Below, piece by piece: positions 2,497 through 50,248 of a stretch of DNA of 64,000 nucleotides (position 1 is the stretch's first letter; each line of letters opens with the position of its first letter). The notes below the pieces were generated by a model. The model had not been told where the DNA came from and did not search any database. It worked only from the letters and a program-made list of their open reading frames with translations. The position numbers and the translations under genes are program-made. The DNA comes from Branchiostoma floridae (taxonomy: Eukaryota; Chordata; Leptocardii; Amphioxiformes; Branchiostomatidae). The stretch is taken from NCBI RefSeq assembly GCF_000003815.2, contig NC_049986.1, positions 11,449,354 through 11,513,353 of the forward strand, read 5' to 3'.

Positions 2497-5400
2497 GTCG
2501 AAGCTTGGCTCCCTGTTCGGTGCTGACCAGGCAAGTGCTAGGGCCGGTAACGAGTCCCTGACGTACACTGCACCGAAGGAACCCAAGAAGGCACAGCCAG
2601 GGAAGGCAGAAAGTGGCAGTGCTCCAGCTCTACTGTTTGCATGCGCTGTACATGCTTACAAATAGTAGGTCCTTTATGTAGAGAATAACTCATTTTTTGG
2701 AATGTTCAGAAAAGGGGGAAAACCTTGGGTATTAGGCATGTAGGCATCTCTAAATTATTATATAATTTAATGATTCTAGACTAGTACTTGTTCATTGCAT
2801 ATCCCAGGATTTAATAGATATGTAAATTAGATTAAAGCTAGTAAAAAATATGCTAGGCTGTATGGATGTGCAATGCCTGACGTGTATATTGTTAGTTGTG
2901 ATAATTGCAGATGTATATGGAGCACATTTATGTATAAGATCCCTCACCAGAGATTTGCTGTCTGTATTTTTCCTCAGTGTGGACAATCAGTATGTCAAGC
3001 AGGGGAAGCTGGGTGCGGCCATTCTTGGTAGCCATAGCAACAGTGATGTAAGTAAAAGATGGATCATGAAGCCAAAATACAAATTTTAGATTACAAATCA
3101 GTAGATTACTCAATGCACCCATTGCATTATATTCAATTGTAAATCTATCACATTTTTGCCTGGAAAATTCCTCCGAATTTGCATTTTTTTTAAAACCTTC
3201 CCTTCAGGATGCTTGGTATGATTAGATAAAAAGTGACAATGGAATGCCAAACCATACCAAGAAAGTTTCTTCAATATCTATTTTAACATTTTTATCTGTT
3301 CCCCTTACCTATACAGTACAAGATCCTGTTGTACGTGAGTAAGGATAGACCTGTCACCACTGCCAAGGTCACAAGGACCTTCAGCTTTACTGTAAGTATG
3401 ACATCACATCTACCATTCTAGACATCCATGATGTGATGAACTATGTCTCAAGGCCATGTTTTGTGTACTCTAGTGGTTAGAGAATGTAGCAGTCAAAATG
3501 AGACTTGGTTAGGGAGGCCCCATGGGGCATTTTCTTTGATGAGAGCTAAGAATTACATATTTATACGTCAAGAAGTCATGTACATGTACCTTTTTCAATG
3601 TGCATGTTAGCCTTGAATGATATTAAGAATAGTATCATACTTGTCTTTTCATTGTCGATATTGAAATACATATGTCTAGGAAACCCAATGTTTTATCAAG
3701 TTGTATAATGCTTATTTTGTTCTGTGATATGCAGGTACAAGCCAACAACTATGCCTCCTTCTATGATGACCAGAGACAGACCTGGTCTATTATGTTTGAA
3801 TCAGAGTCCAATGCTGTGGACTTTGCAAAACATGTGAGTGCTATTATGATTTCATAATTATTGTTATACAATACAAAATTTGCTGGTCTCAAAACTTTTA
3901 CATTTTCTGTAATGGCCTTACCACCGCTCTTTTGTAGATTGGAATGTCCCGAGCCAACAGTGGTGCAATAGATGGAATAGTCCATCAGGACCTAGTCTTA
4001 GGGGAGGGCCAGGCTGTCGATGTGGGAGACTCCATGGAAATGAAATACACTGGATGGCTTTTGAGCAACAACACCTTTGGTCAGGTTAGTAGAAGTGCAA
4101 TCTTGAAATTACATTGTATAACATCATTTTTACATAACCTACTGGCTTTGAGTGATATAGTATCATCTCAATCACAAGTGGTATTCGTTTCCACAAGCCA
4201 TTGTTTTTGACTTGGAGCTTTCATGAAAGCCCCTAATGGATAACTTGATTCTTTTTTGTTTGTTTCAGGTTTTTGACAGTAATATGAGCACAGACAAGGC
4301 CTTCAGGTTCAAAATTGGAAAGGGAAAAGTCATTAAGGTAAGGTCTGCAAATCAGCTAGACTGCAGTAACGACTGTTTCCAGCATGTAGCAAAAGTAATG
4401 TTGATACTGAATTCATATCATGCCTCCACAGTTTGAGATTGTGTCTTTCTATCCTCTCTGTGCTACATGTACTTGTACAGTCATGTAACATAAAGTTTAG
4501 ATCTTTAAAATTTGACTTTTGTCTGCCTCCAGGGGTGGGAAGAGGGAACAGTGGGGATGAAGAAATCAGGGAAGAGGCTCCTGGTTATTCCCCCCAACCT
4601 GGCCTACGGTGCCAAAGGTGTGCCTAACAGGGTACCTGCCAACGCTACACTCGTCTTTGAAGTCCACGCCATGAAGGTGAGTAAGGGCTGTGTACATTCC
4701 AATGTGATGGCTTAATCGATGTACTCAATTTAGAATGTTGCAGATAAAGTTTAATCTACAAGTTCAGATAGATATAAAAAGCAACCATGCTTCTGAAACT
4801 TTGTCCTTAAATTCTTTCCCATCAAGGTTAAGTTCAACAAAGAAGACACCAGGTCCACATCATCTCGAGACTCCCCTGCCCCAAGAGTGGACTCTCCCGT
4901 TGTGGAGGCCCAACCCCCACCAGCACAGGCAGCACCCCAGGTTAGAGAAGTCTGACAATTTTAGAAACATTATTTTAACTACCTCCTCATACCTTACATG
5001 TACTGTAGTAAATGCTGTCTTAGCATTGTAAATTGTTGTCTTTTCAAGGGGACTCAATTTCACAATAGCAGGGAAAGGATATTTTCACTGTGTTTCTGGG
5101 TTTGTTGTTGAAAAGAACTAGTACTGTTGTAGTGCAGAAGTAAAATGTAATGGTAAAGGTAGTCCCTTAGTCTTTTTTAGGCCGTTGGAGCAGTGGGTTC
5201 AGGGATAAACAAGTCCACTAGCCCTATAGTCCCGGGCAAGTGAAAATGCCAATTGGGCAAGTGCATGTCCTTCCCCACTTGCCCGATCGGACAAGTTAGC
5301 TTTCCTCCATTGAGTGAGATTTTGATGTAACGTTACTTGCTACTTTTCAAAGTCATGACATCAAGCATTGATTAACACAGAAAATAGAGCCAATAACAAA

Positions 5401-28980: not shown

Positions 28981-29104
28981 GCAATCCTAAAGGAAATGAC
29001 AAAAAATAGTCATTGAAACCAAACATTTCATGACAAATACTGGAGCTTGAGTGACATACATTAAGGACAGTGAGTGCGTGTGTTTGCCTGTGTGTGTGTG
29101 TTTG

Positions 29105-29215
<111 letters not shown>

Positions 29216-29606: not shown

Positions 29607-30294
29607 TACTCTCCAAGCAGAGGTTAGGCTCCGGCTGTTTTTTAACGTTTTTTNNNNNNNNNNNNNNNNNNNNNNNNNNNNNNNNNNNNNNNNNNNNNNN
29701 NNNNNNNNNNNNNNNNNNNNNNNNNNNNNNNNNNNNNNNNNNNNNNNNNNNNNNNNNNNNNNNNNNNNNNNNNNNNNNNNNNNNNNNNNNNNNNNNNNNN
29801 NNNNNNNNNNNNNNNNNNNNNNNNNNNNNNNNNNNNNNNNNNNNNNNNNNNNNNNNNNNNNNNNNNNNNNNNNNNNNNNNNNNNNNNNNNNNNNNNNNNN
29901 NNNNNNNNNNNNNNNNNNNNNNNNNNNNNNNNNNNNNNNNNNNNNNNNNNNNNNNNNNNNNNNNNNNNNNNNNNNNNNNNNNNNNNNNNNNNNNNNNNNN
30001 NNNNNNNNNNNNNNNNNNNNNNNNNNNNNNNNNNNNNNNNNNNNNNNNNNNNNNNNNNNNNNNNNNNNNNNNNNNNNNNNNNNNNNNNNNNNNNNNNNNN
30101 NNNNNNNNNNNNNNNNNNNNNNNNNNNNNNNNNNNNNNNNNNNNNNNNNNNNNNNNNNNNNNNNNNNNNNNNNNNNNNNNNNNNNNNNNNNNNNNNNNNN
30201 NNNNNNNNNNNNNNNNNNNNNNNNNNNNNNNNNNNNNNNNNNNNNNNNNNNNNNNTTAAAAAACAGCCTGAGCCTAACCTCTGCTTGGAGAGTA
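29607..30294. mobile_element. Foldback/TIR DNA transposon with 9-bp target duplication, interior unsequenced
   Basis: Left TIR TACTCTCCAAGCAGAGGTTA (29607 on) and right TIR TAACCTCTGCTTGGAGAGTA (ending 30294) match perfectly. Pairing continues to TTTTTTAA/TTAAAAAA at the gap edges. CATATTGCC directly flanks both ends (29598-29606 and 30295-30303), a 9-bp target site duplication. This size suggests a Mutator-like element, which is inference. The central 602 bases are N. Confidence 0.85.
29654..30255. other. Assembly gap (602 N)
   Basis: A run of N lies between the inverted repeats of the element at 29607-30294. The true length is unknown. Confidence 1.
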
Positions 30295-34153: not shown

Positions 34154-37100
34154 GTTCTTCCCATAGCAGATTTCAGACTGTAACGCTTAGTTTGTAGGCT
34201 CAAGAATAGTCCCATCAGTGATTGAATCATTACCATGGCAACCGTACTAAACACACTGTCGGCCATCCTGGAGTCGGTGGAGGAAGGCGTGGGGCGGGCG
34301 CTGTACTTCGGACACAGACTCCTGACGCTCCACTACAACATGATGTCCACAGTGTTCACCACGCTCCACTTCATCCTCAGTGCCACAGTCAATACTGTGG
34401 TGTCGGTGGCTAAAACATGCTGGGGAGTCCTCACTCAGGTATTATAATACTTCATATTTGTATCACTGCACTATTGGTGCATGTTAACGTTACGGGTACA
34501 TATTTAAAGGTATAACCGTTATAGATATTCAAAGCATACGAATGGCAGCTGTTTGTGATAATCATTATTTTCTTTATTAAAGGGGAGGCATGGGTTACCA
34601 TTCATATTTGTCTAAGGTGACCCTACAGAATGTTTTATTCCATTGTGGTTGGTCGTTTTTTTTCCAAAGAGGTACAGTCTCCCTTAAACCTCCTTGTTGG
34701 TTTTATTAAGATCCTTCAGAGATAACATATTCACTATTCTTTCTGTTGTCCAGCAAAACGAAATGATGCAAATATAATGACTGAAATGTATAACGTTACA
34801 ATATGCATTTTGGTTTTAGAGAAACTGTAAATAAGGTATGTCAAAATTAGAGCAGGAAGGTGCAAAAATCAATGCAAACTCTGAAGAAAAGAAAAAAAGA
34901 ACCAAAATTTTGTATTTATTTTGACAGTTCTTTGTGCTGGTATTGTACTACCTGTAGTGTATGACTATTTTGATATTTGTCTCCCCCAGATCTGTACCCT
35001 CCTGTTGGACCTGCTGTACCTAACAGGGTTAGTGGTGCAGTACGTCCTGGTGTGCCTTCAGGTGGCCGGCGGGGTCATCTGGGACTTCAGTGGAGTTCTC
35101 AAGCTGGTTCTCACTTATGTTTCCGCTCAGACCTGGCATGCATTGTGTACAGTAGGGTCCCATACGCTGTGTGGCCTTCAAGTCTGCGGTAAGACATTAC
35201 TCCATGGAGTATTGGAAGGATGGCAGGCCGTGAAGTCGGGAGTCCACCTGACAGGTAGCCATGTGTTCTCCTGGGTGACCACAGCAGGGACAAGTCTGTT
35301 TGGTGGACTGCAGGCACTGTTGACCAACACTTTTGCAGCTGTACAGGCACTGGTTACCAACACTTTAGGAGCTGTACAGGCACTGGTGACTAACACTCTG
35401 GCAGCTGTACAGATGTTAGTGACTGGGATTCTCACAGTGATACAAACAGTTCTGATATTCCTGCTGAGCAGCCTCCAGGCTGTGCTGCTGCACGTTTTTA
35501 CCGCAGCACAGCTCCTGGCCATGCAGACAGTCACAGGGCTGCAGCTGGGGGTCAACTACATTATAGCAGCCCTGCAGTACCTGGTCACCAACGTGGTGGT
35601 GCTGCTGCAACTTCTCCAGCAGGGAATCTTCTACGTCCTCGCTGAGTCGTTCCACGGACTTCACGCCGCCGTGTCGTTCCTGGGGACGTGTGCCTGGATG
35701 GTGCCGCAGCTTCTTCTGAATGGAATTCTCGCAATGGCGTACATTCTGTACTCCGTGTCGTCCAGCACGGTGTACTATCTTGCAGAAGGACTGACCTACC
35801 TGCAGGAGTCCATGCTGACCAGCGTGAGGAAAGCAGTGGACTTCCTCTGGCTGACAGTGTCCATATTCTCACTGGAACTTGTAGCAGCTATCGTCTTGCT
35901 GGGGGCCACAGCCATACTGGTAAAGAAGTGGGATGACACCACCCTGCCTCCCCTCCCTGACATCACCCAGCACCTGAACATGTGGACGTTCGGACAGAAC
36001 CTGGAGAACACACAGAACAGGGAGGAGCCAGAAGAAGCAGAGGAGGAAGAAGAGAGGGATGATGGGAGTGATGTGGAGGATTCTGGGAGGGAGGACAATG
36101 ACGGGTACAGTTCGTCGTTGGACAGTTCTGCGAGTGACGAGGGCTCCGAGAGTGAGGAGGGGAGGGAGAGGCACCCACTTCCACCCAGACTTCAGCGGTA
36201 CAACCTTCGCACACGAAATGGTATGCCAGCTTCTTTCTCAAATGTGAATGTTTTTTTACTATAGGGCGATCTGTGATTTTCATTATATTTCAGCCATACA
36301 TAGTATGGTGAAATATATTGTTATATTTCAGCCATACATAGTATGGTGAAATATATTGTATTCGTAATGTTTCTTTCTTTCTTTCTTTCTTTCTCCTGTC
36401 AAATCTTCAAAGTGATTCATCTCCGCCGTTCCTGGACCGAATGACCTGAAATTTGGCACAGGGGTAGAATGGGCTAATACCTTGATGCTTTTTTCTCAGT
36501 TTTTTCATATCTGCCTCTAAAATGATTTTATTGAGATTTTTTGGTCAATTTTAGACCAAAACTGTATATTTTGGCCCCTGTACCCTGGTATTACAACCAA
36601 ATGAGCTGAAATTTGACAGAGATGTGCCTCGATAATGCTCCCATATAAATTCGATGACACTTTTGGTGTACAGTACAACAAAATGCTTATTTTTGCGATT
36701 TTTTTGACCAATTTTTGACCAAAAAAGGACACTTTTGGCTCCTGTACCTTGGTATTGCAACCGAATGAGCTGAAATTTGACACAGATGTGCCTTGATAAT
36801 GCTCCCATATAAATTCGATAACACTTTTGGTGTACAGTACAACAAAATGCTTATTTTTGCGATTTTTTGACCAATTTTTGACCAAAAAAGGACACTTTTG
36901 GCCCCTGTACCCTGGTATTGCAACCAAATGAGCTGAAATTTGACAGAGATGTGCCTTGATAATGCCCCCATATAAATTCAATAACACTTTTGGTGTACAG
37001 TACAACAAAATGCTTATTTTTGCGATTTTTTGACCAATTTTTGACCAAAAAAGGACACTTTTGGCTCCTGTACCTTGGTATTGCAACCGAATGAGCTGAA

Positions 37101-40100
37101 ATTTAACACAGATGTGCCTTGATAATCCCTTCATATAAATTCAATAACACTTTTGGTGTACAGTGCAACAAAATGCTTATTTTTGCGATTTTTGGCCAAT
37201 TTTTGACCAAAAAAGGACACTTTTGGCTCCTGTACCCTGGTATTACAATTAAATGACCTGAAATTTGGTATAGATAGGCATTAGATACTTATTAACAAGA
37301 TTCAAGTAAAATTTTTGACATAAACAACTTTAAAATGATTAATTTTGGCACTTTTCTGAGGGGAAATTTGTTTTCTTTTGGCCTCCTGACGTGACCTTCC
37401 GTGACCCCGCACAGAGCCACACCTGTGCGCGTCAGCCGGAGAGTTAATTGAATCAAAGACCTAGCCAATCAGCGAAGAGAAGAGGAGGCCAAAGGCTAAT
37501 ATTCATAAGCGGGGCCTCATGATCCCGTATATAGCAGTGTTCCCGCCAGGGGGAGCGAAGCCCGCCTAAGGCTCTCGCATTTTAGACTATTCAGAAGGCT
37601 TTATATTGTATCAGTTCTTAGGGGCATATCTATGATAATCGCAGCAGTCACTTAACTTCTCTTCAGGAGTTTAGCGTAACACTATTTCAGGTCAAACCGT
37701 CAAAGGCAACTAAAAACAAACTTTAACGTTACTGAGTTCAACAGTACTTATAACTTGTTATCCGAAGTTGAAACGCTAGCGATGGTATTTTCGCTGCGCT
37801 GTTAGCTCCGTGCGACTGTTGTTGACGGTCTTATAACGGTATATTTTGCACCCCTGTACTCTGGTATGAGTAACATTTGGTATAGATAGGCATAAGATAG
37901 TTGGTAAAATGATCCAAGTAAAATTTTTGGCATAAAGTACTGTAAAAGGCTTAATTACAGCACTTTTTTTAGGGGAAATTGGTTTTCTTTCGTTCTCCAT
38001 GCCATGACCTTTCGGACGTTCACCCCACAGAGCCGACATCTGCACCTGCGTCTAGCCGGCAGGAAGAGTTAATTCAATTAATGGTTCAGCCAATCAGCGA
38101 AGAGGAAAGCGAAGGCTAATTAATATTCATAAGCGGGACCACACAATACGTTAACTTGAAGACTCAGGCCGTACAGACTTCTCGCCAGGATTTTTTCAAA
38201 GCGTCGGACAGGGGTCCGGGGGCCGCCGAATGTCCCTGGCGGGGTCCAGGGGCAGGGCCACTGTGGGGGGGACCCAGGTGGGCGAAGCCCCCCCCCCCCC
38301 CGAAGCTCTTGCATTTTAGACTATTGAGAAGGCTTCTTTTATCAGTTTTTTAGGGCCATATCTACGATAATCGTAGCAGTCACTTACTTCTCTTCAGCAG
38401 TTTGACTTTAAAATATTTCGGGTCAAAGCTTCAAAGACAACTAAAACCTCATAAACAACAAACTTTACTTAGCTCAACAGTATACAAAAATATTGTACGG
38501 GTTGCCATCCTTAGTTGAAGCGCTTATTTATAGCGCTAGTATCTTCGCTGCGCCGTTAGCCGCCGTGCGACTTTTGTTGACGGTCTGATATCCCTACGTC
38601 GCCGCCTCGCTGATATTCCCACGGACATGTTTCAAGAAAAATACCCAGCAAAAAACGCTGTTCTGCGTCAAATTCTATTCTATAAAACATGTGGGACTCA
38701 GTGTTACAGTCTAAATATTTTGTAGAAGCACCGCTGTAGGAAAGAAGGTCCAAGCAATGTAAAACGTCACGTAGCATGAAGTTCGCTGTCAACTGGCACA
38801 CAGCACATGACTGTTTGAAACTCTAAGTCTAATCAACAGCCGTGTTTGATTGATAGCCGGCGGTCCTTTGATGAAGTCGGCGAAAGGTGCGTTAGTTAGA
38901 AAATCTGCGTTTAGTTTTGTACTTAATTGTACATCTAAACAATTGGCTTACCTGTGCAATGTTTATATGATTAATGATCAGTGTACTGAAATCATGTGTA
39001 ACGTATGGCTCCTAGTCAATAGATCAGCATTTTTCTCTATAGTGACCACCTGTCTATAGTGGCCACATTTCTATCACTGGACTGGAACTTGCGAAAACTG
39101 CTGTATTTTCTCCAGAGCAAAAGTATGTGTTCCTAGTGCTGTTGTTGTTTGACATAAACTTTGAACATTTAAATTGTAAGTAACTTTAAACTGCCAGAGT
39201 TTCAGCCCAATAAAACACTCTCAGCGCCAGGGTATGAACAGACTGACCAGACAGACGAAAATAAATCCTCGAACAAGGTTCAATCGTATCTTCCGGGTCT
39301 GGCAGTACTGAGTTGTTAAACTAAAATAAGAATAGACTCGATGGCTGATTGCATACAAAGTAAAACAGTTTGATAGTTTTACAGCTTGAAGAAAACAAAC
39401 GCTCCTACTTCTTTAAATACATCCGAGATGCGTGGAAATCACCCACCTTCTTTGGTGGGAGATTCTGGTTCTCAGAGGGGTCCGACGTCGTCAGGCGGGT
39501 AGTCAGCATTCACAGGATGTTTCAACCTTGTCCCGCTACATCCTCGTGCTGACCGGTCAGCAGTGGTGGCCACTCACTGCTCGCCTCGCCCCTCTGGTCT
39601 CCAATTCTGCTCGTCTCTCTTGAGCCACAGCCAGCAGGAGGCCTTCTCTGCTGCTTCCCCCAACAGTCTTGTTGCTTCCTTCCTTTCTCTACCTGTTAGG
39701 CCCAGGTCTTTAAGTAATTTCCATGATGATGCTGCCGGGAATCCTCTGCATCCAATTTCCACAGGGAACAGCCATGTGTTGCACCCTTTTGCCCTGCATT
39801 CTAGCAGCAGCTCTTGATATTTGCTTCTTTTCCTTTCATGTGCCAGGTCACATCCCTCTTCCCAAGGCACAGTCAGTTCTATCATCACTATGTTGCCATC
39901 TGCGAACAGGACAATATCGGGTCTTAAGGTCGTGTGGACCACCGATGGAAACTGTAGCTTCTTTCCTAGGTCAACCCTCATCTCCCAAGCTTTGGCTTTC
40001 TGCAAGAGGTTGCTGGATGGACGTGAGGTTGCTGGTCTTTTTTCCCCCTCCCTCACAAAAGTGATTGATGCTGCTGTTTTCCTGTGGGGCTGTTTGTTCT

Positions 40101-43100
40101 TCTTTCTTTCCTTCTCCAATATGCTGGCCAGAACTGCAAGGACTTTATCGTGTCGCCATCTGTATCTTCCTTGTGTGAGGGCCACCTTACAGCCTGAAAG
40201 GATGTGTGCCATGGTGCCTCTACCCCCGCAGAGTTTACATGCTGGGTCCTCGACCAGTCCCCACCTGTGCAGATTTGCCGGAGATGGGAGTGTGTCATAA
40301 ACTGATCGCAGTAAGAAGGAAATACGGTATGGTTCTAATCTCCACAGTTCGGACCATGTTACTTTCCTCTGTGGGAGCTCCCATTTACACCAGGCTCCCT
40401 GTACTCCTAGCCCTACGGCCTTTGCTAGCCGTTTCTCATCTTCTTCACGTCTAACCTCACTCTGGATCAGGGCCCTTCTTTCTCTAGGGTTGGCTTTCTC
40501 CCACAGCTGGTACCTAGATGCTCCAAGACCTTGTCTCCCTACACATGGGATCCCAATGATGTCGCGTAGCTTTAACATGCTTTCTGCTCGCTCTACATGT
40601 GTGTCTGCTGACCACTTCCGGCCTGAACGGGTCATTACTCCGGCTTCTCTTACTTTCTGGTCTCTTGAGTCTTTATATGTCATCACTAGCCTGCATTTGG
40701 CGACTTTAAACTCTTCCACAACTGATGAGATTGGTAGCTGTAGTTGGCCTGACCTGATGTAGAGACCAATTGACGTGAAGCTCGGGGGTATTCCTAACCA
40801 CTTCCGTATGTATTTGTTTACTTTCCTCTCTATGCCCTCAACATGCGTCATTGGAATCTCATACACTGTTAACAACCAACCGAGCCTTGGTAGTAACCCA
40901 TGCTGGTATATCCACAGCTTAAACTTTCCTGGTAGGTCTGATCTCTCAGTTCTTTTCAGCCATTCCTCTACTTGTGAGCTTGTGCTTGTAGCATTGCTTC
41001 TGTCTGATAGAGTAGCATCAAACCATTTCCCTAGGCACTTAATTGGGTTGCCGTCTATTTGTGGAATGGTTTCTCCCTGGACTTGGAGGTTGAATCTGTT
41101 GGTGATCTTTCCTTTCCTTATGATCATGCTTCTGGATTTCTTTGGTTTAAAGGCCATCCTTGCCCATGTGACCATTCGGCTTAGTTCGCACAAAACCCAT
41201 CTTGCTTCCACGTGGGATCTGGTGGTGACAGTCAGGTCGTCCATGAAGCCCCTCAATGGTGGCTGTCTGGAACCTGAGGCCATGACTGGGCCCCGTGCCT
41301 TGGCCTCTGCTGCTGAGATAATAAGATTCATTGCCATTATGAAGAGAATTGGGGATATTGTGCAGCCAGTGACAATCCCCTTCTCCAGGGCCTGCCATTC
41401 AGTGATGAAGTTAGTCGTTTTGAACCTTAGCCGCAGCCCTCCAAAGTAGCTGGTGATGAGCGTCTTTATGTTGGCCGGTATATGGTAATGTTCTAGTGCT
41501 TCATGAATGGTGGCGTGTGGTATTGAGCCATACGCATTGGCCAGGTCCAACCAGACCACTGTGAGGTCGCCTTTGCTGGATTTGGCTTCTTGTATCAGCT
41601 GGCTCAGGACTCCCGTGTGCTCGAGACAACCTGAGAATCCAGGGATTCCTCCTTTCTGTATAGATGTATTGACATAAGCGTTGTCGGTTACATACATTGT
41701 TATCCTGTTTGCTAGTACTGAGAAGAAGATCTTGCATTCCACACTCAAGAGTGATATTGTCCTGAATTGACTGACTGTTGATGCGTTCTCCTCCTTCGGA
41801 ACAAAGCATCCTTCAGCCTCCTTCCAGCATACTGGGATGCTTCCCTTTACCCATATCCTTCGGAACAGCTTCCAGAGTCTACGGAGCAGGAGTGGACATT
41901 TCTTATAGACCTTATATGGGATACCGCTTGGTCCAGGTGCTGACCCAGCTCTGGCCTTCTTTACTACATCATTGACTTCTTTCCATGAGGGTTCATCGGT
42001 ATTTAGCTGCTTTTTGGGTTCCTCGGCTTTTCCAACTTTGCCGCTGGGATCCAGTGGTTCATTTCTCAATGGGTCGTTGTGTGACTGTCTCAAGAACTCC
42101 TCTACATCCTCTTTGGAGCTTGTGAGAGATCCTGACTTTTTCTCCCCAAGCAATGCTCTTGTGAACTTAAACGGGTTCTTGATAAATTGAGCCCTGTTGT
42201 TTTGCCTCTTCCTACTTCTCTTCCTTGTATTTTCCGCTCTGCGAAGTTTAGATAAGCGCTCTCGGAGCTGGCTTGTTAGCTCTTTGATCCCGGGCTTTTC
42301 GCTATCTTTGCTCAGCTTAAATCTCTTATTGAGGGTTTTGATCTCCTTTCTCAATCTCCGGATCTCTCTCTCTCTTCTGTTAGGTTGTTTGGCTTGAGGT
42401 TTATGGTTCTTCTTCTCTTCTGTTCCGAACCTTTCCCTGGCCATGTTGTATGTTAATGTGGTGAGGGTCTTGATTTTTTGCTCCACAGACCCTACCAATG
42501 TGGCTTCTAGGACTCCATTGAGATCTTGGTCAAGCTGGGACCATGCTCTGTCCTCGCTCATCTTAGGCCACTTCAATCGTTCTCTCACTGGTTGTTGCTG
42601 GTTCCCCGTTCTAGTTATCGGTGTACCGTTCTCTCGCTGCCTTTCTCTACCCACATGGGATTGGACTTCTGCTGTGGCGACCTGTGGCCTTACATTGTTG
42701 TCACCTTCTAATGCTTGGCTATCTATGGTCTGTTGGGGGCTTCTCGTGTGGCTACGGGGTGAAGTGGCAGTCGCTGAGAGATCTCCTGTACTGTGGGGTG
42801 CCTCCTGACTGGAGTTCTCCTGCGTCTCACCATGTGTTACCAATGTGCGCTGCTTCTGCCTCACCTCTTTGCCACACTTAGTCTTAGCTTGATGGATCTT
42901 CAACCCTCTACCATTTTTGCAGATTTTTCCACAGTGACATCTGGCTTCGACTACTCCCGGTCTCTGACCAGTAAAAGCGGCAGGCCATCTCTGAGTCCGG
43001 GTACTGGTCCTGGTCGTCACCAATGAATCCGATCCAACGGGCCCCTCATCCTCCCCCCCTCTCGGGTGGCCCTGGGGGTATTGCTCTTTATGTTGTGACG

Positions 43101-46100
43101 TAGTTGGGGTAGGGTGCTCCCGCTGACTTGCGAGTGCGTGGTGTTTTTGGGGAAACTGACCCCGTACACCGAAACCGGACTTTCCCGGGGGTCGTCTGTC
43201 TCTCCAGCGTCACCATTCTTTCCTGGTCGTCATCCACTCTATTCATGGAAGTCACTGGAAGCCCAGGGAGTAGTTCTTTAAATACATCCGAGATGCGTGG
43301 AAATCACCCACCTTCTTTGGTGGGAGATTCTGGTTCTCAGAGGGGTCCGACGTCGTCAGGCGGGTAGTCAGCATTCACAGGATGTTTCAACCTTGTCCCG
43401 CTACATCCTCGTGCTGACCGGTCAGCAGTGGTGGCCACTCACTGCTCGCCTCGCCCCTCTGGTCTCCAATTCTGCTCGTCTCTCTTGAGCCACAGCCAAC
43501 AGGAGGCCTTCTCTGCTGCTTCCCCCAACAGTCTTGTTGCTTCCTTCCTTTCTCTACCTGTTAGGCCCAGGTCTTTAAGTAATTTCCATGATGATGCTGC
43601 CGGGAATCCTCTGCATCCAATTTCCACAGGGAACAGCCATGTGTTGCACCCTTTTGCCCTGCATTCTAGCAGCAGCTCTTGATATTTGCTTCTTTTCCTT
43701 TCATGTGCCAGGTCACATCCCTCTTCCCAAGGCACAGTCAGTTCTATCATCACTATGTTGCCATCTGCGAACAGGACAATATCGGGTCTTAAGGTCGTGT
43801 GGACCACCGATGGAAACTGTAGCTTCTTTCCTAGGTCAACCCTCATCTCCCAAGCTTTGGCTTTCTGCAAGAGGTTGCTGGATGGACGTGAGGTTGCTGG
43901 TCTTTTTTCCCCCTCCCTCACAAAAGTGATTGATGCTGCTGTTTTCCTGTGGGGCTGTTTGTTCTTCTTTCTTTCCTTCTCCAATATGCTGGCCAGAACT
44001 GCAAGGACTTTATCGTGTCGCCATCTGTATCTTCCTTGTGTGAGGGCCACCTTACAGCCTGAAAGGATGTGTGCCATGGTGCCTCTACCCCCGCAGAGTT
44101 TACATGCTGGGTCCTCGACCAGTCCCCACCTGTGCAGATTTGCCGGAGATGGGAGTGTGTCATAAACTGATCGCAGTAAGAAGGAAATACGGTATGGTTC
44201 TAATCTCCACAGTTCGGACCATGTTACTTTCCTCTGTGGGAGCTCCCATTTACACCAGGCTCCCTGTACTCCTAGCCCTACGGCCTTTGCTAGCCGTTTC
44301 TCATCTTCTTCACGTCTAACCTCACTCTGGATCAGGGCCCTTCTTTCTCTAGGGTTGGCTTTCTCCCACAGCTGGTACCTAGATGCTCCAAGACCTTGTC
44401 TCCCTACACATGGGATCCCAATGATGTCGCGTAGCTTTAACATGCTTTCTGCTCGCTCTACATGTGTGTCTGCTGACCACTTCCGGCCTGAACGGGTCAT
44501 TACTCCGGCTTCTCTTACTTTCTGGTCTCTTGAGTCTTTATATGTCATCACTAGCCTGCATTTGGCGACTTTAAACTCTTCCACAACTGATGAGATTGGT
44601 AGCTGTAGTTGGCCTGACCTGATGTAGAGACCAATTGACGTGAAGCTCGGGGGTATTCCTAACCACTTCCGTATGTATTTGTTTACTTTCCTCTCTATGC
44701 CCTCAACATGCGTCATTGGAATCTCATACACTGTTAACAACCAACCGAGCCTTGGTAGTAACCCATGCTGGTATATCCACAGCTTAAACTTTCCTGGTAG
44801 GTCTGATCTCTCAGTTCTTTTCAGCCATTCCTCTACTTGTGAGCTTGTGCTTGTAGCATTGCTTCTGTCTGATAGAGTAGCATCAAACCATTTCCCTAGG
44901 CACTTAATTGGGTTGCCGTCTATTTGTGGAATGGTTTCTCCCTGGACTTGGAGGTTGAATCTGTTGGTGATCTTTCCTTTCCTTATGATCATGCTTCTGG
45001 ATTTCTTTGGTTTAAAGGCCATCCTTGCCCATGTGACCATTCGGCTTAGTTCGCACAAAACCCATCTTGCTTCCACGTGGGATCTGGTGGTGACAGTCAG
45101 GTCGTCCATGAAGCCCCTCAATGGTGGCTGTCTGGAACCTGAGGCCATGACTGGGCCCCGTGCCTTGGCCTCTGCTGCTGAGATAATAAGATTCATTGCC
45201 ATTATGAAGAGAATTGGGGATATTGTGCAGCCAGTGACAATCCCCTTCTCCAGGGCCTGCCATTCAGTGATGAAGTTAGTCGTTTTGAACCTTAGCCGCA
45301 GCCCTCCAAAGTAGCTGGTGATGAGCGTCTTTATGTTGGCCGGTATATGGTAATGTTCTAGTGCTTCATGAATGGTGGCGTGTGGTATTGAGCCATACGC
45401 ATTGGCCAGGTCCAACCAGACCACTGTGAGGTCGCCTTTGCTGGATTTGGCTTCTTGTATCAGCTGGCTCAGGACTCCCGTGTGCTCGAGACAACCTGAG
45501 AATCCAGGGATTCCTCCTTTCTGTATAGATGTATTGACATAAGCGTTGTCGGTTACATACATTGTTATCCTGTTTGCTAGTACTGAGAAGAAGATCTTGC
45601 ATTCCACACTCAAGAGTGATATTGTCCTGAATTGACTGACTGTTGATGCGTTCTCCTCCTTCGGAACAAAGCATCCTTCAGCCTCCTTCCAGCATACTGG
45701 GATGCTTCCCTTTACCCATATCCTTCGGAACAGCTTCCAGAGTCTACGGAGCAGGAGTGGACATTTCTTATAGACCTTATATGGGATACCGCTTGGTCCA
45801 GGTGCTGACCCAGCTCTGGCCTTCTTTACTACATCATTGACTTCTTTCCATGAGGGTTCATCGGTATTTAGCTGCTTTTTGGGTTCCTCGGCTTTTCCAA
45901 CTTTGCCGCTGGGATCCAGTGGTTCATTTCTCAATGGGTCGTTGTGTGACTGTCTCAAGAACTCCTCTACATCCTCTTTGGAGCTTGTGAGAGATCCTGA
46001 CTTTTTCTCCCCAAGCAATGCTCTTGTGAACTTAAACGGGTTCTTGATAAATACAGTACCTGCACCTGCTTGATAATTATTAAATCGTATGCCCTACTTG

Positions 46101-49100
46101 AATAAAAAAAGTTCACTGCAATAATAAATGTACCCACATCACAAGGAGCTTATACTTTTTTAAACTTACACCTAGTTATCGTACTGAAAATTGTTAATGA
46201 CATTACATGAAGTCATTCAACAATTTTCAGTCATGATGAAAATTTTCTGAATGGAAGGTGTGATTATTGTCATTTTCTGAAAAATAGAAGCAAGCTCTGT
46301 CTTTACCTGGAATCAATTCACAATACCAGTCCACTTTGGGGGATAATGTACTGTTAAGAGGATGTTCCATTTTTGCGCAGGGGTGATTTGGAACAGTCCA
46401 ATGTTGCGTGGGAAGGGGTATGGCTGAAATATGCTGTATTTGCTCTTAAGCAAATGTCGGCCTTTCTAGTATTCATAATGTTTCTTCTTTCTTTCTTTCT
46501 TTCTTTCTCCTGTCAAATCTTCAAAGTGATTCATCTCCGCCGTTCCTGGACCGAATGACCTGAAATTTGGCACAGGGGTAGAATGGGCCAATACCTTGAT
46601 GCTTTTTTCTCAGTTTTTTCATATCTGCCTCTAAAATGATTTTATTGAGATTTTTTGGTCAATTTTAGACCAAAACTGTATATTTTGGCCCCTGTACCCT
46701 GGTATTACAACCAAATGAGCTGAAATTTGACAGAGATGTGCCTTGATAATGCCCCCATATAAATTCGATAACACTTTTGGTGTACAGTACAACAAAATGC
46801 TTATTTTTGCGATTTTTTGACCAATTTTTGACCAAAAAAGGACACTTTTGGCTCCTGTACCTTGGTATTGCAACCGAATGAGCTGAAATTTGACACAGAT
46901 GTGCCTTGATAATCCCTTCATATAAATTCAATAACACTTTTGGTGTACAGTGCAACAAAATGCTTATTTTTGCGATTTTGGGCCAATTTTTGACCAAAAA
47001 AGGACACTTTTGGCTCCTGTACCCTGGTATTACAATTAAATGACCTGAAATTTGGTATAGATAGGCATTAGATACTTGGTAACAAGATTCAAGTAAAATT
47101 TTTGGACATAAACAACTTTAAAATGATTAATTTGGGCACTTTTCTGAGGGGAAATTTGTTTTCTTTTGGCCCCCTGACGTGACCTTCCGTGACCCCGCAC
47201 AGAGCCACACCTGTGCGCGTCAGCCGGAGAGTTAATTGAGTCAAAGACCTAGCCAATCAGCGAAGAGGAGGCCAAAGGCTGATTAATATTCATAAGCGGG
47301 GCCTCATGATCCCGTATATAGCAGTGTTCCCGCCAGGGGGAGCGAAGCCCGCCTAAGGCTCTCGCATTTTAGACTATATATTCAGAAGGCTTTATATTGT
47401 ATCAGTTCTTAGGGGCATATCTATGATAATCGCAGCAGTCACTTAACTTCTCTTCAGGAGTTTAGCGTAACACTATTTCAGGTCAAACCGTCAAAGGCAA
47501 CTAAAAACAAACTTTAACGTTACTGAGTTCAACAGTACTTATAACTTGTTATCCGAAGTTGAAACGCTAGCGATGGTATTTTCGCTGCGCTGTTAGCTCC
47601 GTGCGACTGTTGTTGACGGTCTTATAACGGTATATTTTGCACCCCTGTACCCTGGTATGAGTAACATTTGGTTTAGATAGGCATAAGATAGTTGGTAAAA
47701 TGATCCAAGTAAAATTTTTGGCATAAAGTACTGTAAAAGGCTTAATTACAGCACTTTTTTGAGGGGAAATTGGTTTTCTTTCGTTCTCCATGCCATGACC
47801 TTTCGGACGTTCACCCCACAGAGCCAACATCTGCACCTGCGTCTAGCCGGCAGGAAGAGTTAATTCAATAAATGGTTCAGCCAATCAGGGAAGAGGAAAG
47901 TGAAGGCTAATTAATATTCATAAGCGGGACCACACAATACGTTAACTTGAAGACTCAGGGCGTACAGACTTCTCGTCAGGATTTTTTCAAAGCGTCGGAC
48001 AGGGGGCCGGGGGCCGCCGAATGTCCCTGGCGGGGTCCAGGGGCAGGGCCACTGTGGGGGGGACCCAGGTGGGCGAAGCTCTTGCATTTTAGACTATTGA
48101 GAAGGCTTCTTTTATCAGTTTTTTTAGGGCCATATCTACGATAATGGTAGCAGTCACTTACTTCTCTTCAGCAGTTTGACTTTAAAATATTTCGGGTCAA
48201 AGCTTCAAAGACAACTAAAACCTCATAAACAACAAACTTTACTTAGCTCAACAGTATACAAAAATATTGTACAGGTTGCCATCCTTAGTTGAAGCGCTTA
48301 TTTATGGCGCTAGTATCTTCGCTGCGCCGTTAGCCGCCGTGCGACTTTTGTTGACGGTCTGATATCCCTACGTCGCCGCCTCGCTGATATTCCCACGGAC
48401 ATGTTTCAAGAAAAATACCCAGCAAAAAACGCTGTTCTGCCTCAAATTCTATTCTATAAAACATGTGGGACTCAGTGTTACAGTCTAAATATTTTGTAGA
48501 AGCACCGCTGTAGGAAAGAAGGTCCAAGCAATGTAAAACATCACGTAGCATGAAGTTCACTGTCAACTGGCACACAGCACATGACTGTTTGAAACTCAAC
48601 TCAAGTCTAATCAACAGCCGTGTTTGATTGATAGCCGGCGGTCCTTTGATGAAGTCGGCGAAAGGTGCGTTAGTTAGAAAATCTGCGTTTAGTTTTGATA
48701 CGTAATTATAAGTTAGACAGTGGCGAGAATGATTATTTTCTCATCAATATTTCTCTTCAGAATTATTTGAACTTAAATGTACATCTAAACAATTGGCTTA
48801 CCTGTGCAATGTTTATATGATTAATGATCAGTGTACTGAAATCATGTGTAACGTATGGCTCCTAGTCAATAGATCAGAATTTTCTCTATAGTGACCACCT
48901 GTCTATAGTGGCCACATTTCTATCACTGGACTGGAACTTGCGAAAACTGCTGTATTTTCTCCAGAGCAAATGTATGTGTTCCTAGTGCTGTTGTTGTTTG
49001 ACATAAACTTTGAACATTTAAATTGTAAGTAACTTTAAACTGCCAGAGTTTCAGCCCAATAAAACAATCTCAGCGCCAGGGTATGAACAGACTGACCAGA

Positions 49101-50248
49101 CAGACGAAAATAAATCCTCGAACAAGGTTCAATCGTATCTTCTGGGTCTGGCAGGAAGTTGTTCAACTAAAATAAGAATAGGCTCGATGGCTGATTGCAT
49201 ACAAAGTAAAACAGTTTAACAGTTTTACAGCTTGAAGAAAACAAACGCTCTTACAGTACCTGCACCTGCTTGATGATTATTAAATCGTATGCCCTACTTG
49301 AATAAAAAAAGTTCACTGCAATAATAAATGTACCCACATCACAAGGAGCTTATACTTTTTTAAACTTACACCTAGTTATCGTACTGAAAATTGACATTAC
49401 ATGAAGTCATTCAACAATTTTCAGTCATGATGAAAATTTTCTGAATGGAAGGTGTGATTATTGTCATTTTCTGAAAAATAGAAGCAAGCTCTGTTTTTAC
49501 CTGGAATCAATTCACAATACCATTCCACTGTGGGGGATAATGTACTGTTAAGAGGATGTTCCATTTTTGCGCAGGGGTGATTTGGAACAGTCCAATGTTG
49601 CGTGGGAAGGGGTATGGCTGAAATATGCTGTATTTGCTCTTAAGCAAATGTCGGCCTTTCTAGTTTTTGCATTGATTACAAGTCCATGTAACCTCTACAT
49701 CTACATATACGTAACCACTACAAACTACATCTCCATTAATTTATGTAAAATCTACATCTATATAACATCTACATCTACATAGGGATACCCCCATCAGGGG
49801 CAAAGTGTATGGGTGGGAGGTGAGGTCCTGGGCTAGTGCGGGTTTTACTTGTGTATGGTCGTGATATTGCAGTCGAGATTTATCTAGATGAGACAGGCCC
49901 ACTATGATTGACTTGTGACGATTCATCCCTGCAGTTCCCCAGCCTGGCGCGTTCTTATCCCGACCCCGTAGCCCCACCCCCACAACCTCCTGTCTGTCTT
50001 CCGACGACGAGGAACTCCAGACTCCCGAGCGAGCGCGGAAAGTCCGTCTGAGATTCACCAAGGAGCGTGAGAAGCGGCTGTGCGTGGTGTGCCAGGATAA
50101 CGTGAAGAACGTGCTGCTCCTCCCGTGCAGACATATGTGCCTGTGTAGGGGGTGTGCTGACCACATCACCAACTCTCTCTACGCACACCAGAGGGTCTGT
50201 CCGCTCTGTCGGTCCAGAATCGGCAACGCACTGGACATCTACATTTAG
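34154..50248 (+). CDS. RNF26: RNF26-like membrane RING E3 ubiquitin ligase, 582 aa
   Basis: RNF26 is an ER-anchored E3 ligase that organises perinuclear endosomes and modifies STING in vertebrates. Exons: 34154-34438 (ATG at 34235, context ACCATGG, 5' UTR before it), 34990-36220, and 49935-50248; 583 codons in frame. Residues 1 to about 350 are almost wholly hydrophobic with many membrane segments, and include short internal repeats (LVTNTLAAVQ-like). An acidic Glu/Asp/Ser-rich cytosolic stretch follows. The last exon carries the RING: C528-VVC, LLPCRHMCLC, C-x2-C, and CPLCR, ending LDIYI. The CRHxCLC and CPLCR pattern and the C-terminal isoleucine-rich end match human RNF26, which is shorter (433 aa). 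The last intron is 13.7 kb and full of mobile DNA. Confidence 0.88.
36292..36357 (+). repeat. Two tandem copies of a 36-bp imperfect palindrome
   Basis: ATTTCAGCCATACATAGTAT followed by GGTGAAATATATTGTTAT occurs twice in a row. Each unit is nearly self-complementary. It lies at the left border of the large intronic duplication. Confidence 0.75.
36369..36393 (+). repeat. (TTTC)n microsatellite
   Basis: A short TTTC repeat lies near the start of block B1. A counterpart is at about 46483-46507 in B2. Confidence 0.8.
36550..37250 (+). repeat. 163-bp tandem repeat array in B1 (about 4 units)
   Basis: The landmark TGGTGTACAG recurs at 36664, 36828, 36991 and 37154, a period of 163-164 bases. Each unit also has ACAAAATGCTTATTTTTGCG, TTTTTGACCA and GAGCTGAAATTTG. 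The minus strand is open in all three frames over most of the array, giving spurious frames of up to 205 codons. In B2 the array has only two such landmarks. Confidence 0.9.
37380..38590 (+). repeat. Two diverged promoter-like modules inside B1
   Basis: The segments 37380-37840 and 38000-38590 are related. Both have CAGAGCC, AGCCAATCAGCGAAGAG, TAATATTCATAAGCGGG, GCATTTTAGACTATT and a matching 3' half ending near TTGACGGTCT. Module 1 has GTATATAG about 60 bases after the CCAAT motif. Module 2 carries an extra GC-rich insert at about 38210-38300. The promoter function is inference. Confidence 0.6.
39409..43273 (-). mobile_element. Hero-type non-LTR retrotransposon, full-length copy (Hero-1)
   Basis: This 3.87 kb element lies on the minus strand, with its 3' end at 39409 and its 5' end at 43273. 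It has one long frame (43023-39574), a 5' UTR of about 250 bases and a 3' UTR of about 165 bases with no poly-A tail. Immediately beyond its 5' end begins the 3' end of a second copy. The single ORF with N-terminal zinc finger, central RT and C-terminal restriction-like endonuclease is the R2/NeSL/Hero architecture. The Hero clade is known from amphioxus. Confidence 0.85.
39574..43023 (-). CDS. Hero ORF: zinc finger, reverse transcriptase, restriction-like endonuclease (1149 aa, intact)
   Basis: The protein would reverse-transcribe its RNA at a nick made by its own endonuclease (target-primed reverse transcription). An N-terminal Cys/His knuckle is visible (C31, C35, H44, C50). A basic linker follows (about 200-300), then the RT: GPSGIPYKVYK, VWLDLANAYGSIPH (first catalytic Asp), GIVTGCTISPILF, and FMDD with the two catalytic Asp. 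Then come a CX2CX7HX4C knuckle (CKLC...HILSGC) and the RLE core RPDIVLFADGNIVMIELTVP (PD...E). There is no stop or frameshift, so this copy may be active or very young. The ATG is the first of the long frame; no better upstream start was checked. Confidence 0.88.
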   Translation of the reverse strand: MVTTRTSTRTQRWPAAFTGQRPGVVEARCHCGKICKNGRGLKIHQAKTKCGKEVRQKQRTLVTHGETQENSSQEAPHSTGDLSATATSPRSHTRSPQQTIDSQALEGDNNVRPQVATAEVQSHVGRERQRENGTPITRTGNQQQPVRERLKWPKMSEDRAWSQLDQDLNGVLEATLVGSVEQKIKTLTTLTYNMARERFGTEEKKNHKPQAKQPNRREREIRRLRKEIKTLNKRFKLSKDSEKPGIKELTSQLRERLSKLRRAENTRKRSRKRQNNRAQFIKNPFKFTRALLGEKKSGSLTSSKEDVEEFLRQSHNDPLRNEPLDPSGKVGKAEEPKKQLNTDEPSWKEVNDVVKKARAGSAPGPSGIPYKVYKKCPLLLRRLWKLFRRIWVKGSIPVCWKEAEGCFVPKEENASTVSQFRTISLLSVECKIFFSVLANRITMYVTDNAYVNTSIQKGGIPGFSGCLEHTGVLSQLIQEAKSSKGDLTVVWLDLANAYGSIPHATIHEALEHYHIPANIKTLITSYFGGLRLRFKTTNFITEWQALEKGIVTGCTISPILFIMAMNLIISAAEAKARGPVMASGSRQPPLRGFMDDLTVTTRSHVEARWVLCELSRMVTWARMAFKPKKSRSMIIRKGKITNRFNLQVQGETIPQIDGNPIKCLGKWFDATLSDRSNATSTSSQVEEWLKRTERSDLPGKFKLWIYQHGLLPRLGWLLTVYEIPMTHVEGIERKVNKYIRKWLGIPPSFTSIGLYIRSGQLQLPISSVVEEFKVAKCRLVMTYKDSRDQKVREAGVMTRSGRKWSADTHVERAESMLKLRDIIGIPCVGRQGLGASRYQLWEKANPRERRALIQSEVRREEDEKRLAKAVGLGVQGAWCKWELPQRKVTWSELWRLEPYRISFLLRSVYDTLPSPANLHRWGLVEDPACKLCGGRGTMAHILSGCKVALTQGRYRWRHDKVLAVLASILEKERKKNKQPHRKTAASITFVREGEKRPATSRPSSNLLQKAKAWEMRVDLGKKLQFPSVVHTTLRPDIVLFADGNIVMIELTVPWEEGCDLAHERKRSKYQELLLECRAKGCNTWLFPVEIGCRGFPAASSWKLLKDLGLTGRERKEATRLLGEAAEKASCWLWLKRDEQNWRPEGRGEQ
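43274..46052 (-). mobile_element. Hero-type retrotransposon, 5'-truncated copy (Hero-2)
   Basis: It is nearly identical to Hero-1 at a constant offset of 3865 bases from its 3' end (43274) up to 46052, where it stops mid-ORF (after GATAAAT) and the host sequence ACAGTACCTGC resumes. One visible difference is AGCCAACAGG against AGCCAGCAGG. It is 2.78 kb, lacking the 5' UTR, the zinc finger and the N-terminal linker. Confidence 0.88.
43439..46052 (-). pseudogene. Hero ORF fragment (RT and endonuclease, N-terminus missing)
   Basis: The frame is open from the truncation point to the stop. The first in-frame ATG is at 46018 (859 aa). RT and RLE motifs are complete and match those of the full copy, but the N-terminal DNA-binding part and promoter are gone. 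It is therefore probably not a functional element. Confidence 0.85.
46053..46468 (+). repeat. Intronic tandem duplication, unit 1 right part (A1)
   Basis: ACAGTACCTGCACCTGCTTG through CGGCCTTTCTAGT recurs almost unchanged at 49252-49665. It is the right part of unit 1, displaced by the Hero insertion. Confidence 0.85.
46469..49665 (+). repeat. Intronic tandem duplication, unit 2 (B2+A2), uninterrupted
   Basis: B2 (46469-49251) and A2 (49252-49665) are joined directly at CGCTCTTACAGTACCTG. This shows the state before the Hero insertion split unit 1. Unit 2 has two fewer 163-bp repeats than unit 1. It also has an extra stretch of about 80 bases near 48698-48776 that unit 1 lacks. Confidence 0.85.
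49694..49785 (+). repeat. Imperfect (ATCTAC)n repeat
   Basis: CTACATCTACATATAC and TCTACATCTATATAACATCT form a degenerate hexamer repeat 150 bases before the last RNF26 exon. Confidence 0.6.

Follow-up and report, generated by a model that had tools for sequence, protein, structure and literature searches.

Head-to-tail Hero-like retrotransposon copies in Branchiostoma floridae run from the unit 5' end directly into a 3' end

Bibillo and Eickbush reportedly described end-to-end template jumping by R2 in 2002 and 2004. We analyzed a natural head-to-tail pair of R2-like retrotransposon copies, a complete copy A and a 5'-truncated copy B, in a stretch of 64,000 bp from Branchiostoma floridae (contig NC_049986.1, positions 11,449,354 to 11,513,353 of the forward strand). 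This whole stretch is called the window. We take the element as a putative member of the Hero clade.

R2 enzymes jump templates in vitro (PMC11371274, PMC10499050, PMC12222951). The event proposed here resembles those reactions in having an R2-like reverse transcriptase, a full-length cDNA that continues at the 3' end of a further RNA, and a head-to-tail product. A difference is that R2 jumping is known from reactions with purified protein, whereas here all 13 natural loci that reach the unit end continue. In human cells, most full-length R2 insertions were ended when the cDNA annealed to the target, and only with an endonuclease-dead R2 protein did head-to-tail repeats become the main type of 3' junction (PMC11371274). 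Tandem R1 elements of Drosophila are also head-to-tail copies of a non-long terminal repeat (non-LTR) retrotransposon, but they arise serially and have a 14-bp target duplication between them, whereas the Hero-like units have nothing between (PMC2718515). Utopia-1_NVit, an element with a restriction-like endonuclease, is 'occasionally inserted in tandem'; it differs in being specific to the U2 gene and in that its tandems are occasional (PMC4640811). Penelope-like elements with pseudo-LTRs form tandem or partial tandem copies, as here, where the partial copy lies upstream of the full one. However, they are another class of retroelement, with a GIY-YIG endonuclease and a hammerhead ribozyme (PMC11167929). 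Neither GIY-YIG in the frame of copy A (Pfam) nor a hammerhead (Rfam) was found. No report of tandem Hero elements was found among the open-access papers listed by literature searches, which did not include Repbase Reports.

Template jumping by R2-type enzymes has been described mainly in vitro. One genome here offers 13 natural products with readable junctions, and for three of them the empty target can be read or is implied. A linear template should yield ordinary complete copies, of which none was found. This raises a testable question: does a non-site-specific element have no means of terminating where its RNA ends, or is its template something other than a linear RNA? An answer would matter for how R2-type enzymes complete insertions and for their use in placing genes.

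One insertion at one target site

The features of the pair, in window positions, are the following.

39409..43273, minus strand: copy A, complete unit of 3865 bp, with its 3' end at 39409 and its 5' end at 43273
43274..46052, minus strand: copy B, 2779 bp, truncated at its 5' end and arranged head to tail with copy A
43273..43274, minus strand: unit-to-unit junction, where the 5' end of A immediately abuts B at its 3' end; the plus strand reads GGGAGTAG and then TTCTTTAAATA
39406..39408, plus strand: left copy of the target duplication (TAC), 2-3 bp
46052..46054, plus strand: right copy of the target duplication, of which the first T is possibly an element base
49246..49262, plus strand: empty (uninterrupted) target site CGCTCTTACAGTACCTG, in the second unit of a local duplication
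39577..43209, minus strand: open frame of 1211 codons in copy A, with a reverse transcriptase and a zinc-binding zf-RVT region

As the element is on the minus strand, its 3' end is at the left. At the left edge, CGCTCCTAC was followed by TTCTTTAAATA; in the middle, CCCAGGGAGTAG was followed by TTCTTTAAATA; and at the right edge, CTTGATAAAT was followed by ACAGTACCTG. Self-BLAST of the window aligned 39406-42187 with 43271-46052 over 2782 bp, without gaps and with 99.93% identity. The two mismatches were a flanking base (39408 C, 43273 G) and one base within the element (39634 G, 43499 A). A and B differed at 1 of 2779 bases, with zero host DNA separating them. A sequence-only reading of the window had described a full-length copy adjoining a nearly identical truncated one; its coordinates proved exact, and no clear divergence of the copies appeared.

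The flanks were aligned with the empty site. The left flank (38916-39408) matched 48766-49254 with 96.8% identity, and the right flank (46052-46470) matched 49252-49664 with 97.6%. The two alignments overlapped at 49252-49254, which is TAC. Because the element itself would continue with a T, the target duplication measures either 2 or 3 bp. The local tandem duplication comprises 36358-46470 and 46469-49664, its flanks are 96-98% identical, and the element pair is in the first unit only. Because the second unit keeps the empty site, A and B have one common target duplication, as the sequence-only reading had proposed.

The copies also appear to come from one source. At position 39634, B and six other copies displayed carry A, indicating that the G is private to copy A. 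A and B also agree with each other at alignment columns 383 and 433, where none of the three other copies with coverage has their base. Copy A differed from two other copies of its family at 7 of 1021 (L009) and 14 of 506 positions (L010), compared with the 1 of 2779 for B. By this sequence evidence, it is well supported that the A/B pair arose in one continuous target-primed event at one target, and the evidence argues against serial insertion and assembly duplication.

In the copy A frame, Pfam detected RVT_1 (E 9.4e-21) and zf-RVT (25.2 bits, slightly below the cut-off of 27.5). Among solved structures, R2 proteins were nearest, with E values reaching 7.6e-29, and LINE-1 ranked behind them. 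Judged by sequence similarity, the enzyme is a non-LTR reverse transcriptase most similar to that of R2. R2-type elements have one open frame with a zinc finger near the N-terminus and a restriction-like endonuclease near the C-terminus. Copy A has one frame, and candidate motifs for the other two features (CxCx..HxxxxxC and RPD..E) were seen by eye; neither was matched in the library. The family of copy A (family 1) has the constant 3' end, variable 5' truncation and short target duplication (TAC) of target-primed products. Its chromosomal 3' starts were at TTCTTT in six of eight copies and shorter by 1-2 bases in the other two (three further loci lack the 3' end), and its 5' ends all differed. 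HERO elements are mostly non-specific in target (PMC4640811).

Crossing of the unit boundary in the genome

The window's own genome (513,431,437 bases, 431 contigs, one assembly) was searched with junction queries and with the frame of copy A. Nine related families were labelled in this analysis; the junction queries covered families 1-7, and their counts are lower bounds. In the protein search, the best 38 of 3179 first-look candidates were scored, and the N-terminal region was counted as kept when the match began at query position 87 or lower.

All 13 examined loci, from nine families, whose element reaches the unit 5' end continue directly into a 3' end. Fourteen loci with the N-terminal region were among the matches listed in the protein search: eight cross the boundary (A, L019, L020, L022, C9a, C17a, C17b and C4b), six stop short with other DNA beyond (C14a, C4a, C8a, C19, C18 and L021), and none ends at the boundary. 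The junction queries added five crossing loci (C2, C9b, C11, C8c and C6b). Among their scored matches for families 1-7, no copy ending at the boundary was found; two matches do end there, both at crossing loci (C17b and C17a), and these ends reflect a difference between the 3' end of the query family and that of the locus. Copy A was the sole copy of family 1 found among the matches listed to reach its 5' end. The 3' end met after the boundary was that of the locus's own element at 10 of the 13 loci; it matched a related element elsewhere at C11 and C6b, and the family of the locus at C2. If the loci are taken as independent, the 95% lower bound on crossing is 0.79. These counts support passage from the unit 5' end to the 3' end at high efficiency. 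They also suggest that the enzyme does not stop at the template end, since the other complete copies examined share the structure.

A second family, about 67% identical, was found by a junction query and has the same arrangement at L019 and L020, with different flanks; L022 is a third family-2 locus, whose second copy is only 44 bp long. Ten family-2 insertions were listed at 94% identity or more. Three of them pass the unit length, all three continue, and none stops at the unit end. The complete unit keeps a 1188-codon open frame in both L019 (530-4353) and L020 (496-4319), so these arrays look young. With 12 other loci sharing the architecture of the window pair, the tandem pair sought by the sequence-only reading in other genome copies is not isolated.

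Second copies were found only behind complete first copies; truncated copies were followed by other DNA. In 10 arrays, the first and second copies within a locus differed at 2 of 5149 bp, compared with between-locus differences of 51/3824 in addition to the two family-1 values above. The second copies of C11 and C6b were comparable only to other loci (1/226 and 1/130 differences), and C2 was outside the comparison. Ungapped counts for L019/L022 and L019/L032 were disrupted by indels and discarded. A single target with a readable or implied empty site was present at three loci: A/B; L019, which is inserted within a minisatellite with intact CTATCTGGTCTATAGG units; and C9b, which has an intact CTCCGTACATAC close by and a 3-bp target duplication.

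These data bear on serial insertion, in which a later element lands exactly at the end of the first one, for example in the copied target, as in R1. Tandem R1 copies in Drosophila do arise in this way (PMC2718515). Another point for it is that the host triplet before the 3' start is CAG, the same as the unit 5' end, in 7 of 12 family-2-like copies (L019-L023, L025-L027 and L030-L033; L024 and L034, without a 3' start, were excluded). However, R1 tandems are spaced by the 14-bp target copy, and each array here has one target duplication where readable. Exact adjacency at 13 loci and identity at 5147 of 5149 own-locus positions are unexpected from independent events. The junction CAG as a target copy was ruled out at L019: the target there ends in TGG, yet the junction reads CAACAG as in L020 and L022, indicating that these bases are encoded by the element. 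We consider serial insertion very unlikely.

We give equally little credence to a surplus unit made by the assembler or by haplotype merging. Related loci L035 and L052 do contain gaps, and the published Branchiostoma floridae assembly, if it is the one used, was an approximately tenfold Sanger shotgun with merged haplotypes (PMC7269912). Against this, the break would have to fall at the exact unit boundary in 13 places and nine families. Joins with second copies of 44-130 bp should fit inside one Sanger read, comparison with the empty site bears out the right-hand join of B, and truncated copies never bear a surplus unit. The single N run in the window (29654-30255) is outside the A/B pair.

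Stopping is common on both sides of the boundary, and none was seen at the boundary itself. The stops short of it lie at distances of 26 bp (C14a), about 36-39 bp (C19), 68 bp (C18), about 94 bp (C139 and C11b, counted as one event because they share flanks), 100 bp (L021) and 150 bp (C8a); the last 100 bp or so ahead of the boundary thus contain the stops of five insertion events. Past it, the second copies extended 44 bp (L022), 56 (C4b), 100 (C8c), 117 (C17b), 124 (C9b), 130 (C6b), 226 (C11), 418 (L020), 923 (L019), about 1144 (C9a) and 2779 bp (B), at least 319 bp in C17a, and at least 127 bp before N in C2. Thus, 6 of the 13 crossing loci stop no more than 130 bp beyond the boundary. C17b and C2 seem to hold two full units and a final partial one, with N gaps between; L035 (C2) was used solely for its ungapped junction. 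L029 (C6:20851401) was excluded as a rearranged remnant, its pieces terminating about 52-68 bp before the boundary, and four matches ending short of the boundary (C10:3685964, C2:3292182, C5:2485651 and C16:5246295) were left out of the counts.

In HeT-A, transcription begins in the 3' region of the upstream neighbor, so a complete RNA carries a piece of the 3' end at its 5' end. Such tagging would suit the seven arrays with second copies of 44-226 bp. However, the length of the piece is not fixed: it is 44, 418 and 923 bp in family 2, and about 1144 bp (C9a) versus 124 bp (C9b) in family 3 and a close relative. Whole extra units are also left unexplained, making this origin extremely improbable.

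Template, junctions and RNA structure

We think it moderately likely that the enzyme jumped within one target-primed event, either onto another RNA from the same source gene or onto the 3' end of the RNA it had just copied. The element would be an R2-like, non-site-specific non-LTR retrotransposon, and the pair would have been made in one target-primed reverse transcription. The nicked target would prime first-strand synthesis at the 3' end of the RNA. The enzyme would copy the whole unit to its 5' end and continue unbroken at the 3' end of another template of the same source. Synthesis would stall 2779 nt further on, and the opposite side of the target would then be ligated to the stalled end. 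If the element lacks 5' homology to its target, it would have nothing to end on, and only stalling would terminate synthesis. The failure to stop may thus come from the lack of a homologous target sequence to which the cDNA could anneal.

At the DNA level, the data amount to one target, an end-to-end junction, one apparent source, and the same structure at 13 loci. That crossing is an end-to-end jump, rather than the reading of a circular or multi-unit RNA, is what we infer from them. The sequence-only reading had the reverse transcriptase jump to a second RNA. One continuous event at one target stood; a second RNA went beyond the evidence, as the copies came from one source. Recopying of the same RNA, a circular RNA and a multi-unit transcript fit a single source as well.

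The alternative, possible though doubtful in our judgment, is a template RNA that is continuous over the boundary, being either a circle or a transcript that spans several units of a tandem array. The unit 'ends' would then be starting points of copying. Since none of the 13 loci ends at the boundary and stops lie on both sides, and since junctions are identical within families 2 and 3, such a template accounts for the lack of stops there and for the invariant junctions no less simply than a jump does. The near-perfect identity of own-locus copies and the apparent third, partial units in C17b and C2 are also in its favor, as is the description of Penelope-like elements as transcribed into multi-copy RNA (PMC11167929). 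With such a template, insertions of any length, including more than one unit, could be normal, and the partial upstream copy might tentatively be seen as acting as a pseudo-LTR. However, no cutting or circularizing ribozyme was found in the Rfam scans described below. The B-A pair alone cannot yield a longer multi-unit transcript, and the conserved leader hairpins described below look like a true RNA end region.

The family-2 junction, CAACAG followed by TTGGTAAATAC, was identical at three independent loci (L019, L020 and L022), and the family-3 junction core CAAGTAACTTACTTG was also identical at three loci. The latter (L039, also L035 and L053) forms a 7-bp inverted repeat around one base. 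A template jump might leave untemplated bases at some joins. The sequence-only reading had called for a check for such bases: none that varied were seen in families 2 and 3, where the junctions are identical, whereas family 1 has a single junction with an ambiguous TAG, and neither this TAG nor the CAA at the C17a junction could be assigned an origin. Chromosomal 3' starts varied in family 1, as given above, and in family 6 (two of four complete), and were invariant in families 3 (8/8) and 4 (8/8). As start precision differs by family, the invariant junctions in families 2 and 3 do not separate a jump from a continuous RNA. The family-2 start at L030 is preceded by TCAACAG, seven bases of the unit 5' end; this is 1 of 12 cases and may be chance.

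A possible hairpin was located near the 5' end of the unit RNA.

43255..43266, minus strand: possible hairpin CUGG-GCUU-CCAG, from a motif search

Eleven leaders, drawn from nine families, contain the motif C[U/C]GG-loop-CC[A/G]G, and the distance from its start to the boundary is 4-10 nt. In a second leader hairpin, 51 of 55 standard pairs were kept, and four of five pairs had changes on both sides (raw pair count). A conserved, covarying hairpin by the boundary looks like the mark of a real RNA end region. Against this, minimum-energy folds of single leaders differ between families, with the first hairpin absent in some, including the family-1 leader, and the consensus fold drew the second hairpin only. 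No plausible ribozyme was detected by Rfam in the window pair, in part of L019 or at seven other loci, and matches up to E 5 included no hammerhead.

Several points weigh against a jump between RNA ends. Jumping by R2Bm in vitro was at a low level (PMC10499050), whereas crossing here is very regular. Both templates always come from one source, which a continuous RNA explains more simply, and the junctions of families 2 and 3 are invariant where a jump might leave untemplated bases. The sample comprises 13 loci and the best candidates scored, with families 8 and 9 outside the junction queries, and is the DNA sequence of one assembly.

Other observations

A truncated Hero-like copy at C4:23.10 Mb (L040 119-303 and L041 254-439, reversed) lies between what appear to be target duplicates of about 186 bp (99.5% identity), far longer than the 2-3 bp of the A/B site. 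In the window, the N run is bordered by a 39-bp inverted repeat with 97% identity (29607-30294), and a short-period tandem repeat at 29070-29213 gave many overlapping self-matches.

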